A program made the position numbers and the translations under genes. The notes beneath the pieces were generated by a model. The model was not told the DNA's origin, ran no database searches, and was given only the letters and a program-made list of their open reading frames with translations. Shown in pieces: positions 1 through 23,260 of a DNA stretch of 23,324 nucleotides (the stretch's first letter is position 1; each line of letters starts with the position of its first letter). This stretch comes from a virus, in the IMG/VR virus record IMGVR_UViG_3300025138_005176, positions 1 through 23,324 of that record; one strand, written 5' to 3'.

Positions 1-580
1 CCCAATTAGACCAATAAACCCATCCGTTTTCCATATCATTCTGTGGAACACCGTTTATCATTACTGCAACATTTCGTTGATTAAACCCTCGAACATTGAT
101 ACGAGCATCACCCGCACCACCACCTTGACCGGTTGCATAAACACTCGGTGTAGTATTCAGAATCATTGGAATGTCTTGACTACCAAGACGAACTTCCATT
201 TCTTCTTTATCTATCGTTGTGTACGCCACAGGTGTTCTTTCACCAGCCCTAGAAGCCAGAACTTCAAGGCCAGACATAGTAAGTACATCCATCGCTAATA
301 TGAATTCAATACCTACGTTCTCTTCTCCCACAACAACTTCCTTAGAAACTGATGTGTGCCCTATGTATGAAGCAGTTACAGTATAAGAACCTGGTGTCAA
401 TTCGACACGATAAGAACCGTCATCCGAAGATACAGCCCCCAACTCAGTTCCTTGCACTACAATATTTGCTCCAGCCAAGGGTGCATCTCCATCATTTACG
501 ACTCCTGATACGGATTGTCCAAAAAGGAAAATCGGCAGGAACATCATTAACAATGAAGTTATTAGATTACGTTTTTTCAT
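1..580 (-). CDS. TonB-dependent outer-membrane receptor, N-terminal part (truncated by window edge)
   Basis: This is an open frame of 193 codons that runs off the left end, so only the N-terminus is visible. It begins MKKRNLITSLLMMFLPIFLFGQ, a signal peptide with a basic start, hydrophobic core and the FGQ-type end common in Bacteroidota. Residues about 22-97 form a carboxypeptidase-D regulatory-like beta domain (PLAGANIVVQGTELGAVSSD, then DGSYRVELTPGSYTVTASYI). A plug domain follows, with RINVRGFNQRNVAVMINGVP and NDMENGWVYWSNW, typical of SusC/RagA-like and related receptors. Such receptors import siderophores, cobalamin or glycans across the outer membrane using TonB energy. The frame has a strong AAGGAG; spacing favours the ATG at 580 over the adjacent one at 583. 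It lies 80 nt downstream of the ribonucleotide reductase gene on the same strand. Its GC content is clearly higher than that of the phage genes. The ligand cannot be told. Confidence 0.85.
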   Translation of the reverse strand, partial: MKKRNLITSLLMMFLPIFLFGQSVSGVVNDGDAPLAGANIVVQGTELGAVSSDDGSYRVELTPGSYTVTASYIGHTSVSKEVVVGEENVGIEFILAMDVLTMSGLEVLASRAGERTPVAYTTIDKEEMEVRLGSQDIPMILNTTPSVYATGQGGGAGDARINVRGFNQRNVAVMINGVPQNDMENGWVYWSNW

Positions 581-660
581 CATAATCTCCTTATTTTGTT
601 ACGATTAAGACACATTTTTCTACAGGTGTGCCAGCTGCCTGTCCGCTTTTGTAATTTGTT

Positions 661-15052: not shown

Positions 15053-17443
15053 TTACAATCCTACTTTACCCAACAAGCCTCTTGTTACATCACCCAAATC
15101 GTTGGATGGGTTGGGTGAGTTGAAAGCTTCTAATAGACTACTTCCTATACCACCTAAGCCTAAATTTTTCTCTTGTATATACGTTTCTGAAGCCACCCAA
15201 GGTACATCAAAGTGTTTCTGAGTTGAAGATGGCATTCTATCACCGATATAAATAAAACTACAAGCAACTTGAATATACTTCGGTAGTTTTGCAAAATCAA
15301 CTTCCCATGTTGTATTATCTTGTACTGTATAAACTAATGAAGATATATAACCAGGTGCATCTTGATACATTTGACCAATTGTTAGTTTTGAAAACGGTGC
15401 AATCATTACACCTTCTTTAACATCCGGATATGTCAATCCAGCTAAATAATTTAATTTTTCCCATAGTGTAACCAATTCAGCATCAGATTTTGGATAAACA
15501 TCAAAACTAAAACTTATTTCTCTATTTGTACCTTGATAAACATAAACCATATCTGGTCTGCCAACATACCTTTCTGGAGAATATTCAGGTGAGAATGTAT
15601 CTGTTATACCACTTAGTATTGCTCTGAATACTATTGGTTTATTGGTACGAGCATCTACAAATTTAAATGGGATGTGATCTAATGTACCATGTTCTTCATC
15701 TTTATATTTTGTACTACCATATGGAATAAGATTAACCTTGTCTATACCAACATCTTCAAATGCTCTATGATCTAATTTTGCAAGTTGGGCCTTACTTAAT
15801 TTTCCAGCGTCTCCAAGCAACCCTTTTGCAACTTCTTGGGTTTTCGTAGCAAGGGCTGCAGCACCTTTAGCACCTTTTATACCCTTATCTACAATTGAAC
15901 CACCGAGTTCTCTTAATTTTTGAAACTTAGGTACTTTTATTGATGGTAATGGCATACTAAAATCTGGACTTAACCCAAACCCACTAACACCACTAAGCAC
16001 TGAATTACCACCTGTAAGTCCATCTAAATTGAATCCACCAAAACCCCCTATACCCCCACTAAAGTCAATACCTTTAAATGCAATCTTTTTTGGCTTTCTT
16101 TTCTCTGCAAATGCTATAGCTCTTGTAGAAATACCATCTACTATTTTACTTCCAAGTTTTTTTGCACCAACACCTGCAGCTTCAGCTAGTGCGTTACCGG
16201 CTGCACCAAAATCAGTTATATTCCTACCATGTCTATTAAACATCATACCAGGAACACCTGGTATACTGAATGTAGATAGTGGGTTGAATACCTGTGGATT
16301 TAAATCTAGTAATCCACTATCTGCAGCTATTGCCGTTACCATACCAGCAGCTGTGTCAAGAAATGCGTCATCACTCACCGTATTAGAACCCATTCCCATA
16401 ACTTGGGTATATGCCCTATCATATTTATTCTGTCTATGTAGAAAATTTTGTTTGATGGAATATGTTGATATTGGATTTGCGAATTTACCAATTCTTATCA
16501 CATCAGCTTTATATCTATTTGTAAAGGTATTAATATTTCTACCAAATGCTGGTGATGCAGTTTTACTTAAAATATCAATTCCAGCTTCTATAAATGAAGT
16601 CGCTGTAGAACTCAAAGTATCAATTCCAGCGGCTAGAGGAGCACCTATTGTAAACTTACTTCCAGGTGGTGATATTAGAGATGTTGCTGCACCAGTTACG
16701 TTTGATAAATCAACACCATCACTCCATCTCTGACCTATACCTCTTACAACTTTAGGTTGATTACTTATACCCACTCTTGCGTTTGATCCAATTTTAAATT
16801 TAGTATAATAATTATCTAAACTCAATCCATTTCTTGTAAATCCGTTATTTTTTAATTCTGTTTTACCATCGTTGTGTAATTTATATAACCTAGATTTTAG
16901 TGCAGTGTTTGGTGCAATAGTTGGAAATTTATTATCAGAATTATTTAATGGCACAAAAGTAAATGAATATTGATTTGGAACGACAGCATGGTTAACAAGT
17001 CCATTTATACCAACAGTTGATATTTGTTGAAGTGGCGTTGGATTATTACCTAAATTATATGTATTGTTAGCTTTATTAGTGGATGAAAATATAGGTGCAA
17101 AGTCTAGTTTTTTATCTAAATATAAGGTTGTTGGTATGGGTGCGACATTTAGTTCATTATGTGGAAAACTAGGAGTGTTACCAGCTGTAAATGTATTACT
17201 ACCAAAATTTTTGTTTATTACAGATAAATCAGTTGTTGGTGTAACTAACCTTGATTGCAATCTAGCTCTACCAACTGAAGCATCTATCTCTTGTCTGGTT
17301 GGAACAGGAGCAAATACTGCACTTGTGAGTGGTAATGGTTGTTCATTTAGTTGTGGAGTTTGACCACCGGTATTACTACCTGGTTCACTAGATTGATTTT
17401 CACCTTGTAATGATAGTAATGATTTCAGTTCTACCAATGGCAT
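15053..17443 (-). CDS. Large baseplate / tail-tube-proximal structural protein, 796 aa
   Basis: This virion structural protein follows the tape measure gene. Residues 1-35 are Ser/Gly/Gln/Pro-rich and disordered-looking, and the middle is rich in Gly, Ala, Asn and Thr, including GFGGFNLDGLTGGNSVLSGV. The conserved part is C-terminal (588-743): LDHIPFKFVDARTNKPIVFR, then ILSGITDTFSPEYSPERYVG, then SFSFDVYPKS, then LWEKLNYLAGLTYP, then MIAPFSKLTIGQMY and IQVACSFIYIGDR. I associate this block with baseplate proteins at the tube-baseplate junction of T4-like phages (gp48/gp54-like role), but the exact equivalent is uncertain. AAGGA is six bases before the ATG, which shares one base with the tape measure stop (TAATG). 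A LysM-like gene follows one base later. Confidence 0.65.
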   Translation of the reverse strand: MPLVELKSLLSLQGENQSSEPGSNTGGQTPQLNEQPLPLTSAVFAPVPTRQEIDASVGRARLQSRLVTPTTDLSVINKNFGSNTFTAGNTPSFPHNELNVAPIPTTLYLDKKLDFAPIFSSTNKANNTYNLGNNPTPLQQISTVGINGLVNHAVVPNQYSFTFVPLNNSDNKFPTIAPNTALKSRLYKLHNDGKTELKNNGFTRNGLSLDNYYTKFKIGSNARVGISNQPKVVRGIGQRWSDGVDLSNVTGAATSLISPPGSKFTIGAPLAAGIDTLSSTATSFIEAGIDILSKTASPAFGRNINTFTNRYKADVIRIGKFANPISTYSIKQNFLHRQNKYDRAYTQVMGMGSNTVSDDAFLDTAAGMVTAIAADSGLLDLNPQVFNPLSTFSIPGVPGMMFNRHGRNITDFGAAGNALAEAAGVGAKKLGSKIVDGISTRAIAFAEKRKPKKIAFKGIDFSGGIGGFGGFNLDGLTGGNSVLSGVSGFGLSPDFSMPLPSIKVPKFQKLRELGGSIVDKGIKGAKGAAALATKTQEVAKGLLGDAGKLSKAQLAKLDHRAFEDVGIDKVNLIPYGSTKYKDEEHGTLDHIPFKFVDARTNKPIVFRAILSGITDTFSPEYSPERYVGRPDMVYVYQGTNREISFSFDVYPKSDAELVTLWEKLNYLAGLTYPDVKEGVMIAPFSKLTIGQMYQDAPGYISSLVYTVQDNTTWEVDFAKLPKYIQVACSFIYIGDRMPSSTQKHFDVPWVASETYIQEKNLGLGGIGSSLLEAFNSPNPSNDLGDVTRGLLGKVGL

Positions 17444-18702
17444 TATAATTCCTTTTTAATTGATCTTAGACTACTATCCATACTTTCCAATATACCAGTT
17501 TGACTTGACAATACACCAACCACAGGATCACTAGTGGTCGAAGCAACAGTTCCAGCAGTTGTTGTGGCTGTATTATTTCTGACCAATCTGGATAAATTCT
17601 CTACGCTTTGACCAACACTATCTGCCAATGCCCTTCTTTGAAGAACATTCAATCTATTAAATTCAGCCTCACCGCCGACCTGTTTCAATATTTCTTTCAT
17701 CATACCTTCTTGATCGCCAGTAAGAGCCAATTGTCGTGCCCTATCAAGATTTAATTGCCTACCAAGTAATACTGAAGCTTCCATCTGTTTTTCTATGGAT
17801 GATTCAAAATCTAATAATGATTCTGTAGTGTCCGACACTGCACTCATATTCAATCCTAACTTTTTGGCAGCTACTGCGGCATTAACCACATTCATACCGC
17901 CATCTTTAGCAAATGAAGCGAAATTTTCAGCATTATCAGCTAAATCTTTAAATATATCACCTGGTGCCAATCCAGCCTGTTCTATCATCTGACCAGTTAT
18001 TTCTATCTGTGATAAAAGTGCATCTCTACTGGCACCAGAGATTGATTCCATTAAGGAAAGAGTTTTTGTTAATTGATCTGCTGTCTGACCACTTTTCATT
18101 GCTGTTTGAGCTAATGATAAACTCAAACCCAAGGCCTCATCCCTAGTGGCTCCTAAATTATCTCTGGCTGCAGCAAATGATTCTTTTAAATCTGAAGCTT
18201 CTAATCCAGATAAAGCAGCTACCTTTTCCAAACCAAAGAATGCAGCTTCTAATTTAATTGCTTCTGCAGCAGATACTCCTAAATCCTTTCGTGTTTCCGC
18301 AACCTTTTTTGCTAAACCCGTGAATAACTTAAATAGTGCTACTGCACCTGCTAGAAGTGCTAACAATGGATTTGCAGCTGCCAATACTCTTAAAGTATTT
18401 GCAAAAGTTGCTGCACCTTTTGAAAGACTAACAATACCTGGAAAAGAATCTGAAATTGCGTCGTTTAGTCCGTCTTGTTCTTTTGTTTGTTCTTTTATAG
18501 TTTTTAAATAATCTTCACCGACACCATTTCTAACAATACCATCTGCATTTATTGCACTAGCTATAGATGCTAAGTCTCTTTGTCTACCAAAGAGAGCCCC
18601 TGCAAGTACTCCTTCTTCTTTAAGTTGTTTTTGCCTTTCTATGCCAAGATCATGTAATTCCTTTGCGACATTTAGGGCTCTATCGTGTGAACTTTCGGCC
18701 AT
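17443..18702 (-). CDS. Tail tape measure protein (short)
   Basis: This protein is proposed to set tail length and to be ejected into the host envelope. The 419-aa product is rich in Ala, Leu, Ser and Lys and mostly helical. A strongly hydrophobic segment lies at about 104-131 (LRVLAAANPLLALLAGAVAL), and a long repeat-like helical region follows (KLEAAFFGLEKVAALSG, SGQTADQLTKTLSLMES, DGGMNVVNAAVAAKKLG), as in TP901-type tape measures. It sits just downstream of the frameshifting tail chaperone and small-protein genes, the standard place for a tape measure. It is shorter than T4 gp29 (590 aa), implying a shorter tail if the usual length rule holds. AAGG is a few bases before the ATG. The 3' end overlaps the baseplate gene by one base. 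Confidence 0.72.
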   Translation of the reverse strand: MAESSHDRALNVAKELHDLGIERQKQLKEEGVLAGALFGRQRDLASIASAINADGIVRNGVGEDYLKTIKEQTKEQDGLNDAISDSFPGIVSLSKGAATFANTLRVLAAANPLLALLAGAVALFKLFTGLAKKVAETRKDLGVSAAEAIKLEAAFFGLEKVAALSGLEASDLKESFAAARDNLGATRDEALGLSLSLAQTAMKSGQTADQLTKTLSLMESISGASRDALLSQIEITGQMIEQAGLAPGDIFKDLADNAENFASFAKDGGMNVVNAAVAAKKLGLNMSAVSDTTESLLDFESSIEKQMEASVLLGRQLNLDRARQLALTGDQEGMMKEILKQVGGEAEFNRLNVLQRRALADSVGQSVENLSRLVRNNTATTTAGTVASTTSDPVVGVLSSQTGILESMDSSLRSIKKEL

Positions 18703-19009: not shown

Positions 19010-19207
19010 TTACTTTTTATATTTGTCCATTTCCTTTTTAAGCTCGTTGGCCTCTTCTGTGTAAAAGGTCTGTAAACGCTTCAAGTAAAATGTTCTAAGG
19101 TATATAGGTAGGTTGTAGACTTCACCAAAGGTAAATCCACCTTTTGAGTGTAATATTAATTGAAATATTTCCTCATGTAATTGTAATTTATACTTAGGAC
19201 TCAGGCC
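19010..19207 (-). CDS. Frameshift-expressed extension of the tail assembly chaperone (65 codons)
   Basis: Reading the minus strand from 19207 gives 65 codons beginning GLSPKYKLQLHEEIFQLILH, then SKGGFTFGEVYNLPIYLRTF, then YLKRLQTFYTEEANELKKEM, ending DKYKK. The KGGFTxxEVYxLPxYLRxFYxxKL pattern is one I associate with small proteins next to gp26-type genes in T4-like phages, so this looks like real coding sequence. The frame is closed by a TGA about ten codons upstream of its first glycine and has no ATG, GTG or TTG before TTG and ATG codons late in the frame. The simplest way to translate it is a +1 or -2 ribosomal shift at the T7 run at the end of the preceding gene, giving a fusion of about 308 aa. 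This parallels lambda G-T and its analogues. Confidence 0.75.
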   Translation of the reverse strand, partial: GLSPKYKLQLHEEIFQLILHSKGGFTFGEVYNLPIYLRTFYLKRLQTFYTEEANELKKEMDKYKK

Positions 19208-19934
19208 AAAAAAATCGTACGGTGATAGGGATCGTCACCGTTAACTCCTTTCCATTGGAATCAACAACTGTTGTAGTCATATCAATATCTGGTGTTATAC
19301 TTTTTAAATTTTTTCTGAATGCTAAAGAATCAACTGATAAAAATTCGTTTTCTACAAAATTATTTATATGTGATTTTTCTGACTTACCATCAACTGATAA
19401 TATCATGGCCTTTAACCTTGTTGTTAGTTCTGAACTTTGCTCTTTAGATATTTTTTGTCTTGCCTTTACTTCCAAATCCACTTGTTTCTCATCATTGCCA
19501 TTTAATAATTTAAATGTTATTGGTCGTTTAGAATTTGGTAAATCAAAAGAAAATTCATTTTCACCCTGTACGAGTTTACTGAAATCAATGTCTATTGGTT
19601 CTAACATGGTTAAGTCTGTTTTTTGTTCCACCCCATCATATTCAAATTGATAATCCTTACCATAACCAAGAATACGAGCTGCTACCATGATTGCATTCTT
19701 ATCACCTATCAGTAAATCACCAACTTTTATTGATTTATCTACGATTAGAGCCTGTAATAGTGCATCGATTACAGTTCCTTGTTGAATTAAATTTTGTGAG
19801 GTTAGAATATCCTCTTCTTTTGCGGTCATGTACTTTACTTCTACCTTACCCTTGGATAAAGGGTGACCATCCATGTAGAAATAACCCTTAGATGGTAATT
19901 CTACCATCTCTGTGGGAAATTTATAATCAGCCAT
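19194..19934 (-). CDS. Tail assembly chaperone / baseplate hub assembly protein, T4 gp26 family
   Basis: This is a 246-aa member of the T4 base-plate protein family (gp26-like). The N-terminal block is typical: MVELPSKGYFYMDGHPLSKG, then VEVKYMTAKEEDILTSQNLI, then GTVIDALLQALIVDKSI, then DLLIGDKNAIMVAARILGYG. The C-terminal half is polar and beta-rich, ending TVRFFWPES. By position between tube and tape measure genes it corresponds to the lambda gpG-type chaperone that coats the tape measure during tail assembly; that equivalence is inference supported by the frameshift extension immediately after it. GGAG lies six bases before the ATG. The last codons contain a run of seven T residues at which ribosomes could shift. 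The zero-frame product should be the major one. Confidence 0.85.
   Translation of the reverse strand: MADYKFPTEMVELPSKGYFYMDGHPLSKGKVEVKYMTAKEEDILTSQNLIQQGTVIDALLQALIVDKSIKVGDLLIGDKNAIMVAARILGYGKDYQFEYDGVEQKTDLTMLEPIDIDFSKLVQGENEFSFDLPNSKRPITFKLLNGNDEKQVDLEVKARQKISKEQSSELTTRLKAMILSVDGKSEKSHINNFVENEFLSVDSLAFRKNLKSITPDIDMTTTVVDSNGKELTVTIPITVRFFWPES
19205..19217 (-). other. Candidate programmed ribosomal frameshift site (T7 slippery run)
   Basis: The zero frame reads CGA-TTT-TTT-TGG and stops four codons after the run. The seven T residues are at 19214-19208. A -2 shift (or +1) on the T run enters the GGC codon at 19207 and the 65-codon extension. A -1 shift gives only Leu-Ala before TGA, so the common -1 mode is excluded here. 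A homopolymer length error in the assembly is the main alternative. Confidence 0.7.
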
Positions 19935-19991: not shown

Positions 19992-20201
19992 TTATTTTTT
20001 ACCAAATTTCTCTGCTGCTGTAACTCCCAATCCCACTACGGATATGTACATAAAACACTCTAGTATTTTATCTTTTACTTCAAAAGCTGTAAAGGTGTCT
20101 GCACCCCAACTACAAATCAACATAAAGAAAGCTGCAAAACCAACAAATCTTTTACTTGAAATTTTTGCATCACTTGATAACATTTCTCTTAAAAAACTCA
20201 T
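19992..20201 (-). CDS. Small two-helix membrane protein, holin candidate
   Basis: The 69-aa product has two predicted membrane helices: about 19-37 (FVGFAAFFMLICSWGADTF) and 46-63 (ILECFMYISVVGLGVTAA). A charged N-terminus (MSFLREMLSSDAKISSKR) and a basic end (EKFGKK) flank them. Size, two helices and charged ends fit a class II holin, which would permeabilise the inner membrane to start lysis. An alternative is a virion or superinfection-related membrane protein, since it lies inside the tail module and no endolysin gene is visible next to it. GGAG is five bases before the ATG, and the gene begins nine bases after the tube gene. Confidence 0.65.
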   Translation of the reverse strand: MSFLREMLSSDAKISSKRFVGFAAFFMLICSWGADTFTAFEVKDKILECFMYISVVGLGVTAAEKFGKK

Positions 20202-20210
20202 ATTTACTCC

Positions 20211-20696
20211 TTAGAATTGTAAGATAGCGTAGTCATACTTCAATGTTAGAGTAATTTCAGCTGGATCACTTGATGAATAATCTAAATCACCAAAGTTAGC
20301 CTGTTCGATGTAAGCACCTTTAAGTACCCACTCTTCAACAACATCACCGACTGGCCCTAACAAATTGAAAGTAACATCTTTTTTATAAAAATCTGAATAC
20401 CCATCTCTACCGGTAACGGACTCATGTGATAGTCTAACCCACTCCATAACTGCTTGTGCTCCACTTGGAACTACAGGATCATAAAGTACAACATCGATAG
20501 GTTGCCATGCACCCTTTCCTTTAATATATCGTTTAACATTTATATGGTCTAAGACTATCTCTTCAAATTGAATCGATGGTCTGTTTGCAGTTTTGATCAG
20601 ATATGCTGGAATACCTTCAATGTACATGATGAACCGATTCTTTGTTTTCGGTTCAAACGGTGTGAACATTATTTCTGACGGGTCTAGTGTAGCCAT
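20211..20696 (-). CDS. Tail tube protein, T4 gp19-like
   Basis: This is the hexamer-forming subunit of the inner tail tube. The 161-aa product matches T4 gp19 in length (163 aa) and pattern: KTKNRFIMYIEGIPAYLIKT, then FEEIVLDHINVKRYIKGKGA followed by WQPIDVVLYDPVVPSG, then GDVVEEWVLKGAYIEQANFG and a C-terminal strand EITLTLKYDYAIL. It follows the sheath gene across a 134-base gap that carries a terminator and a late-type promoter. AGGAG lies eight bases before the ATG. Its separate promoter may allow a different expression level from the sheath. Confidence 0.93.
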   Translation of the reverse strand: MATLDPSEIMFTPFEPKTKNRFIMYIEGIPAYLIKTANRPSIQFEEIVLDHINVKRYIKGKGAWQPIDVVLYDPVVPSGAQAVMEWVRLSHESVTGRDGYSDFYKKDVTFNLLGPVGDVVEEWVLKGAYIEQANFGDLDYSSSDPAEITLTLKYDYAILQF

Positions 20697-20830: not shown

Positions 20831-23260
20831 TTATTCAGGAAATGTAGCTCCTGTTGGTTGAACAACGAAGTCTAGTACAATAAACTCAGCAGTTCTTGTA
20901 GGTTGTACGAATATCTGACCAACCAACTGATTTCTATCTACGACATCAGGTGTATTATTAGATTCATCCATAACAACTCTAAAAGCACTTAATCCACTAT
21001 TAGATTGAACTTGTTCAAGATAAGGATTTACGATATTTAAGAATCTATTCCTTAGTGCCTGGGTATTTTGTTCAAATACTAAATACCTTGATGCACTTGC
21101 AATAAATTTTCTAACTGTAATCAATAATCTACGAACATTGATTCTATCCAAAGCAGATGGTTTAGATTGTAGTGTTTTTTGTCCAAATACTACAACTCCT
21201 TGACCAGGAAATGATGCAATTGGGTTAACTCTACCTTCATAAAGTTCATCTCTTTCAGCGTGAGTCAATCTTGTAGCCGCTTCTAATACAGAAGTCAATC
21301 CACCACGATTTAATCCAGCTGGAGCAAACCATTCATGAGAAACTCTATCAGTATATGATATCACACCAGGTAATACTACTGATGGCGGAACCCATACTGG
21401 TTTTTGAGTATCTCTATTTGGTATTTTAATCCACGGATAGTATGTTGCAACATAGTTAGTATCTAATGAATTAACCGTATCAACAACAGTCTGTACTGAA
21501 TCAGTATAAGCTGCTGAATCCATGATGTATAATGCATCTGCCCTAGCTTCTGTCTTTGATATAGCATGATTTGTTACACTTGAATGTAATCTATGAATAA
21601 CACCAGGTGTTACCAGTAAATTAATATCAAATTCATCAGGATTACTAATAGCATTAATTGCTCTTTTATAAGCTAGAGTACCATTAGCAGTTGTGGATGA
21701 TAAATCAAATCCCTGTGTATTTGTATTGACAATTTCAGTTCCTACGAAATAAGGTGTTGCTGGATTACGACCATCAAACCCAAATTGAAAAGGAACAGCA
21801 AATTTCAACTGAGCTGTTGCAGAACCACTAAGTGATAATGGTACAGCTGTTCCAGAATACTTAGAACCAAGTTCGGATGCATCGTTAGTTCCAGTAAAAT
21901 TTTCCAATGACATAGTTACATTATTTCCAGTTCCAGCATTTAGAGGAATTGGAGCAAGATATTGTTCATTATCATCACTAATCTTTGAAGTTAAAAAGTC
22001 AAATCCATGTAATACGGAAGAGTCAAATGTACCATTAGAATTAGTTTGATTTGATTTAAATGAAGCTGATGGTATTGTCGTAGTTCCTAAAGATGTGTTG
22101 TTTAGGATATCAAATCCCATAGGTACAACTGTCTTTGGAAATTGACTTATATTACTATCAACTTTAGTAAAATCACCAACTCTAATATGTTTACTTAGAT
22201 TAGGATAATCACCATAATAGGTTAATTTTCCATTTGAATCTATTTCAACAAATCTATCACCAATTCTCTTTGCAAAATAGTTTGGAGAATTTGAATCAAA
22301 TGTTAAAGCATCAAATTGTTCTAAAATAGTATCGTCATTAGTTCCATTTGGATTATGTACTCTAGCTTGAATTGAAAAAGTACCATAATCTGAACCAGGT
22401 ACATCATCAGCCCTTTTAATATTTAATATTGCAATTTTAATATCTTTATTTATATCACTACCATGTGAACGAGTATATACTCTAAATAGTTTATATCTCG
22501 CATCACCAACTAATTGTGATTGTATATAAGGTGTTCTTGCACTATTGTATGCAACATTACCAGTATATGAGTTTTCATTTCCTAAGGCATCAATAGAAGT
22601 TACACCACCTTGAAAATCTAAACCATTTGCTTCATTTTTAGCTGATACGGTTGATGTTGTAGCAGCACCAAATATAAGATGAGAAGCTCGTTTAAATACC
22701 TTGTAGACATATACAGATGAATTAGAATTACCTGATTTTTGACTTTGAGCATCTTCACTTATCACCTCAGTAATAAAATTAGCACTACTTGTATTAAATG
22801 ACAAATTGTATGTTTCTGCAGTTACATCACTACCAGATACTTGTAATTGAAAACTAGCCCAAGTACCAGCACCGACAACATTAGTATATGATAAATCTCC
22901 AGCTCCACTTGAACCACGAGATGGTGCAAGGATTGCAAGTGAATGTGATACTGTACCAAGTTTTGCAACTAATTGCACTGTATCTGCTTGATAACCAGCC
23001 AATCCAAGAATCCTAACTATTGTTACGACTCCTGCACTTTGTAAATATTGTTCTACGGTGTAAGGTGTGTAAAATCTATCATCGACTCCACCAAACATCT
23101 CTTCAAATTCTTGAAATGATGTTATTTGGGTTGGTGTGAATGCTGGGCCTTTTGTGGTAGGCCCAATAATTGCAGCACCAATCTCACCAATTGCTTGTGG
23201 TAAGAATGATAAATCTGTTTCACGAGTAAATACACCAGGCGAGACTACTCTTTCTGCCAT
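20831..23260 (-). CDS. Contractile tail sheath protein, T4 gp18-like
   Basis: This is the subunit of the contractile sheath that drives the tube through the host envelope. The 809-aa product begins with the typical MAERVVSPGVFTRETDLSFL, then EIGAAIIGPTTKGPAFTPTQ, and a FGGVDDRFYTPYTVEQYLQS block. The C-terminal domain is characteristic: NPIASFPGQGVVVFGQKTLQ, then ALDRINVRRLLITVRKFIAS, FEQNTQALRNRFLNIVNPYL and a terminal beta strand AEFIVLDFVVQPTG. It is longer than T4 gp18 (659 aa); the extra length appears to lie in the surface-exposed middle (roughly 110-480), rich in Ser, Thr, Asn and Gly. AGGAG is seven bases before the ATG. A terminator follows it. Confidence 0.95.
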   Translation of the reverse strand: MAERVVSPGVFTRETDLSFLPQAIGEIGAAIIGPTTKGPAFTPTQITSFQEFEEMFGGVDDRFYTPYTVEQYLQSAGVVTIVRILGLAGYQADTVQLVAKLGTVSHSLAILAPSRGSSGAGDLSYTNVVGAGTWASFQLQVSGSDVTAETYNLSFNTSSANFITEVISEDAQSQKSGNSNSSVYVYKVFKRASHLIFGAATTSTVSAKNEANGLDFQGGVTSIDALGNENSYTGNVAYNSARTPYIQSQLVGDARYKLFRVYTRSHGSDINKDIKIAILNIKRADDVPGSDYGTFSIQARVHNPNGTNDDTILEQFDALTFDSNSPNYFAKRIGDRFVEIDSNGKLTYYGDYPNLSKHIRVGDFTKVDSNISQFPKTVVPMGFDILNNTSLGTTTIPSASFKSNQTNSNGTFDSSVLHGFDFLTSKISDDNEQYLAPIPLNAGTGNNVTMSLENFTGTNDASELGSKYSGTAVPLSLSGSATAQLKFAVPFQFGFDGRNPATPYFVGTEIVNTNTQGFDLSSTTANGTLAYKRAINAISNPDEFDINLLVTPGVIHRLHSSVTNHAISKTEARADALYIMDSAAYTDSVQTVVDTVNSLDTNYVATYYPWIKIPNRDTQKPVWVPPSVVLPGVISYTDRVSHEWFAPAGLNRGGLTSVLEAATRLTHAERDELYEGRVNPIASFPGQGVVVFGQKTLQSKPSALDRINVRRLLITVRKFIASASRYLVFEQNTQALRNRFLNIVNPYLEQVQSNSGLSAFRVVMDESNNTPDVVDRNQLVGQIFVQPTRTAEFIVLDFVVQPTGATFPE

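Follow-up and report, generated by a model that had tools for sequence, protein, structure and literature searches.

The G/GT tail assembly chaperones of phage lambda and its relatives were reportedly treated by Xu, Hendrix and Duda in 2004. A 2016 review (PMC5009743) gives -1, -2 and +1 as the shifts known for frameshifted chaperones, lists T4 as the exception among long-tailed phages, whose G-T frameshift is otherwise conserved, and calls the tail assembly frameshift of the haloarchaeal myovirus HSTV-2 'very likely +1'. Vladimirov, Gautam and Davidson (2022, PMID 34826709) reportedly identified T4-like gp26/gp51 as tail assembly chaperones and proposed a non-frameshift mechanism. PMC10885494, citing that work, states that some T4-like phages have a short gene and a longer fusion gene, and PMC12846349 attributes to the same authors the finding of -1 signals of poly-T type in T4-like TAC-N genes. 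The chaperone function of T4-like gp26/gp51 is thus already published and is not new. Sullivan et al. 2010 (PMC3037559) had already equated cyanophage gp51 with the C-terminal portion of T4 gp51. An earlier report of the +1 branch described below was not found in the full-text literature, as covered by open-licence papers; this large branch, its series of slip sites and a direction opposite to that of its sister branch appear to be new.

The window, that is, the whole stretch of DNA analysed here (23,324 nucleotides), comes from a 23.3-kb linear IMG/VR virus record, taken here as that of a marine relative of T4. We propose that a single gene in this window would, through a +1 frameshift, supply the short and the long form of a T4-type tail assembly chaperone, a reading to which we give a probability of about 85%. 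The features concerned, all on the minus strand, are as follows.

19194..19934, minus strand: gp26-like tail assembly chaperone, putative TAC-N, frame 0, predicted short product of 246 aa (phrog_150, PF12322 via relatives, AF2)
19203..19217, minus strand: candidate slip site CGA_TTT_TTT_TGG_CCT, with T7 at 19208-19214 (conservation and re-pairing analysis)
19010..19207, minus strand: putative TAC-C extension of 65 codons and a stop, lying in the +1 frame and lacking a start codon (pN/pS, profile comparison, model)
19010..19934, minus strand: predicted fusion TAC-NC, 307 aa by +1 (translation with TGGC taken in one step)
20211..20696, minus strand: gp19-like tail tube protein, upstream neighbour (phrog_4542, E 7e-31; 54% identity with the Flavobacterium phage immuto homologue)
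20831..23260, minus strand: tail sheath protein (PF04984, E 5e-15)
17443..18702, minus strand: protein of 419 aa, probably the tape measure (aligned over 256 aa at 30% identity with an immuto protein annotated as tape measure, E 2e-16)

The gene order is read as sheath, tube, chaperone, a 78-aa ORF and probable tape measure, and the chaperone lies between the tube and tape measure genes, which is the classical G/GT position. A further ORF of 69 aa with a hydrophobic stretch (19992-20201, minus strand), without a PHROG match, lies between the tube and chaperone genes. At the edge of the window, positions 2-583 (minus strand) encode the N-terminal part of a SusC/TonB-dependent-receptor-like protein that adjoins the phage nrdJ and is cut by the contig end; because a related phage contig (G001) carries a 60% identical homologue at its end (24432-24881), this fragment may be phage-borne rather than the mark of a chimera.

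The gp26-like gene ends, in frame 0, with GTA CGA TTT TTT TGG CCT GAG TCC TAA (VRFFWPES and stop), and thus stops shortly after the T7 run (19214-19208). The codons of the extension occupy 19207-19013 and its stop 19012-19010; its frame is closed on the upstream side by a TGA and has no ATG, GTG or TTG near its beginning. Both the early stop and the startless 65-codon frame had been pointed out in a preliminary description of this DNA, and the sequence bears them out. Translation of all possible slips also confirmed its claim that the extension can be entered only via +1 (307 aa) or -2 (308 aa), as a -1 slip at this site yields a product ending in FLA or LA, with a stop after a few residues. 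The -1 heptamer class X_XXY_YYZ does not apply, the extension not being in the -1 frame of the window gene.

This arrangement is strongly conserved in the window's clade. Close homologues (72-100% identity) were found in 80 viral contigs; the 15-nt sequence CGATTTTTTTGGCCT was unchanged in 80/80, and the extension, with the same frame relation, was present in every contig long enough. Among the 58 distinct close homologues, CGATTTTTTTGGCCT was invariant, whereas the codons on either side varied at most third positions, and the Arg codon of the slip motif was CGA in 58/58 loci, as against 32 CGA codons among the 343 Arg codons in the remainder of these genes. Over these 58 loci the extension frame contained no stops and had a pN/pS of 0.16, whereas the other two frames gave pN/pS values of 1.2 and 2.4 and, per sequence, 2.6 and 5.7 stops; the extension is thus under purifying selection. 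An ATG within the first 15 codons after the slip was found in none of 79 loci of this clade, and any ATG, GTG or TTG upstream in the extension frame in 1/79. The preliminary description had suggested checking whether the T-run, the missing start and the frame relation were shared by homologues, and all three are kept in the window's clade. Because motif and extension are kept across homologues and the extension is constrained, the observation is beyond chance and the T-run is not an assembly error.

As to the identity of the two domains, the N-domain matches phrog_150 ('baseplate hub') with an E value of 2e-10. Against Pfam, the window protein itself fell below the pass level for PF12322 (T4_baseplate), a family detected in 27/62 of its aligned relatives (best 5e-22). 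In T4, PF12322 covers residues 1-206 of gp26 and 1-201 of gp51, the latter having about 48 residues beyond its match; since both proteins match this family, they are, on this assignment, paralogues. The N-domain and the extension were folded by AF2 as separate models. In BFVD, the N-domain model (pLDDT 91) matched baseplate hub proteins of SP-15 and of T4-like phages (best E 6e-20), and its best PDB match, the HK97 tail assembly chaperone 2ob9, was not significant (E 0.7, probability 0.6). The relatives, phrog_150 and the fold match together uphold the gp26-family label given earlier, and place the N-domain, through intermediates, in the T4 gp26/gp51 family PF12322. The extension was modelled as a small helical domain (pLDDT 88), and a fold search with this model returned no significant match. 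In the profile search that had been suggested for the 65-aa extension, its profile matched that of short cyanophage gp51 (hhalign probability 94%, P 2e-7), and the cyanophage gp51 profile in turn matched residues 210-245 of T4 gp51 (P 7e-5). The extension profile compared directly with T4 gp51 was not significant, nor did hhalign of the fusion profile against the single T4 gp26 or gp51 sequences give anything significant; the homology of the extension to cyanophage gp51, and through it to the T4 gp51 C-terminus, is accordingly indicated by stepwise profile comparison. Since the N-domain and the extension have these relationships, the short form is supported as TAC-N and the predicted fusion as TAC-NC, counterparts of lambda G and GT. 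A PF12322 search of the 23-kb window, which is insensitive here and covers an incomplete genome, gave no match anywhere, the controls included, and no second copy in the form of a separate full-length gene 51 was seen. Separately, DUF6760 (PF20546) was weakly matched by 6/47 extensions (best E 0.003) and might perhaps be the same domain occurring elsewhere.

Widening the search to phage immuto, Microcystis phage Mel-JY01 and megaphage LR756508 as queries added 180 loci, and the extension was in the +1 frame in nearly all of them. Named isolates share the architecture of the window. In Rhodothermus phage RM378 the site reads TCC_TTT_TTT_TGG and is followed by a +1 extension, and +1 extensions with other flanking codons occur in Bacillus phage SP-15, Listeria phage LIS04 and Streptococcus phage GXN1; profiles of RM378 and SP-15 brought up no additional relatives in IMG/VR. 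A +1 extension was also present in 6/6 checkable loci from bacterial MAGs (four labelled Bacteroidota, the rest unclassified), one of them with TTT_TTT_TTC. Elsewhere in the +1 branch, an ATG that is not conserved stands upstream in the frame of the extension in some loci (23/77 and 37/76 in different subgroups). Re-pairing was analysed at 189 distinct loci, including isolate phages of Flavobacterium, Microcystis, Rhodothermus, Bacillus and Streptococcus. Most sites read TTT_TTT_TGG, and the variants were TTT_CTT_TGG, TTC_TTT_TGG, TTT_CTA_TGG, CTT_TTT_TGG and TTT_TTT_TAC, with CUU_U slip variants in the immuto group and UUU_U in the window. Re-pairing of the P-site tRNA after a +1 shift is possible in 189/189 of these loci. 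Stimulatory elements were also sought: no downstream RNA structure is conserved (z -0.4 for the single sequence, weak stems only in consensus folding), and no Shine-Dalgarno-like stimulator adjoins the slip site, the upstream codons GTC ACC GTA CGA being without such a motif.

The alternatives may be judged against this survey. The preliminary description had left +1 and -2 side by side. In a -2 ribosomal frameshift of the Mu type, the P-site tRNA-Phe would move back two bases on the T7 run and give a protein of 308 aa with one extra Phe; the run permits this in the window and in 140/189 distinct loci, but -2 re-pairing is impossible at TTC_TTT_TGG, TTT_CTT_TGG, TTT_CTA_TGG and further variants (43/189), although the genes are homologous and the extension is in the same frame. 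We therefore regard +1, for which every site is suitable, as the best-supported direction, one inferred for this particular phage from its relatives, and -2 as improbable; the +1 half of the earlier alternative has stood and the -2 half has not. The invariance of the 7-T homopolymer across the window's clade would also suit transcriptional slippage, by which RNA polymerase drops one U on the run and the frames are fused in some mRNAs. However, related loci with runs of only three or four T (TTT_CTT_TGG, TTC_TTT_TGG) keep the frame relation. Seven T residues are short for RNA polymerase slippage, and we give this explanation very little credence. An error of assembly or sequencing that splits one ordinary gene is a natural suspicion, homopolymers being generally error-prone, but the same T7 is found in 80 contigs from many metagenomes and isolate genomes without the T7 show the same frame break; this candidate is refuted by the homologues, and its probability is close to nil.

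It has also to be considered that the extension is a separate small protein, made by reinitiation or from an internal start, so that TAC-C would act in trans as the other half of a split chaperone. In the wider family, two related loci, L356 and L362, begin the extension at a separate ATG that stands 3-5 nt past the gp26 stop, its frame being closed before that ATG, and 60/76 distinct cyanophage-like loci have an ATG at most six codons after the slip site. In the window's clade, however, there is no usable start and 15 nt are invariant up to the slip; the frame would therefore be reached by read-through and not by initiation, and separate synthesis seems to us very hard to credit here. Of the observations that had been named in advance as contrary to a frameshift, a homologue with a run of six or eight T that fuses the frames was not found, nor was an ATG of the extension in the window's clade; the separate ATG was found only in the side lineage of L356 and L362. 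The programmed-frameshift reading and the analogy with G/GT, both proposed in the preliminary description with gp26 as a functional analogue of gpG, are thus supported by the comparative evidence.

We propose that most ribosomes would end at the TAA and release the 246-aa gp26-like TAC-N. A fraction would slip +1 at UUU_UUU_UGG: with UGG still in the A site, the P-site tRNA-Phe could leave its UUU and pair with the UUU that overlaps it, and decoding would then go on in GGC CUG and so forth, yielding the 307-aa TAC-NC. If the parallel with lambda G/GT holds, the tape measure protein would be coated by the N-domain, and the tube protein would be brought in by the C-domain. That ribosomes actually slip, with what efficiency, and that the products serve in tail assembly, we infer from the comparisons above.

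The sister branch has taken another course. In the cyanophage-like loci, a homologous extension follows NNT_TTT_TTC in the -1 frame (79/79 readable loci), and because 60/76 distinct loci have a nearby ATG, separate initiation of gp51 is a live possibility in that branch. A tree of 118 N-domains separated, with full support, the cyanophages together with T4 gp26 and gp51 from the window and all other +1 loci; the T4 sequences stand on long branches, and their exact place is unsure. The exceptions are XacN1 (-1; on a long, insecure branch), S-SCSM1 and L356/L362. The last two loci are nested in the +1 branch, and their extension, longer at the N-terminus, begins at its own ATG, so that this lineage has evidently replaced the frameshift by a separate start. 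In Synechococcus phage S-SCSM1 (L098, 2160-2374), which lies inside the cyanophages, gp51 has an ATG and is in the +1/-2 frame; in this the phage departs from its tree neighbours. The annotated starts of cyanophage gp51 vary (L107-L186, L097), and that of S-RIM8 (L099) is placed inside the conserved domain. With slightly better than even odds, we suggest that in two ancient branches one and the same Phe-Phe codon pair is read through with shifts of opposite sign, +1 at YUU_UGG among Bacteroidota phages and others and -1 at U_UUU_UUC in cyanophages, that T4 26/51 arose by a later duplication that replaced frameshifting, and that L356/L362 represent a second, independent loss.

Given a large branch with a near-universal +1 signal, one can test how the T4 gene pair arose, and the survey provides a natural collection of +1 slip sites that involve a sense codon. 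In addition, a 65-codon coding region is missing from many annotated phage genomes, cultured isolates included: the public annotation of immuto omits the extension (L090, 4839-4949), and in Mel-JY01 (L091, 4776-5012) and RM378 (L103, 2201-2377) it is annotated from an arbitrary separate start.

Compared with known systems, the locus resembles lambda G/GT in its place between the tube and tape measure genes and in its predicted pair of a short and a frameshifted long form, but the lambda shift is -1, and the window's N-domain has no detectable sequence relation to the lambda protein and a weak fold resemblance to HK97 gp13. With the -2 tail assembly frameshift of phage Mu it shares an extension in the +1/-2 frame, whereas 43/189 distinct slip sites of its relatives are incompatible with -2. 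HSTV-2, likened here by its description, would likewise use +1 in the chaperone gene of a contractile-tailed virus but belongs to a different virus group. The proposed slip is like those of prfB (RF2) and of influenza PA-X at UCC_UUU_CGU (PMC3498833 for PA-X), in which a P-site YUU moves +1 onto the next U or C, and the CTT_TGG and TTC_TTT_CGT variants among the window's relatives resemble such sites; unlike in prfB, the A site of the window holds the sense codon UGG and no stop, and there is no Shine-Dalgarno stimulator. T4 gp26 and gp51 share the N-domain family PF12322 and the pairing of a short (gp26) and a long (gp51) protein, with the C-terminal addition starting where the window's proposed frameshift lies, but they are two separate, divergently oriented genes, whereas the window has one gene with a frame break. 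The cyanophages (Kyanoviridae), with gp26 and a small gp51, keep this order: immediately behind gp26 comes a homologous extension in a different frame, and there too the break falls at two conserved Phe codons; they differ in that their extension is in the -1 frame at NNT_TTT_TTC, usually with an ATG close by, whereas in the window the shift would be +1 at TTT_TTT_TGG without an ATG.
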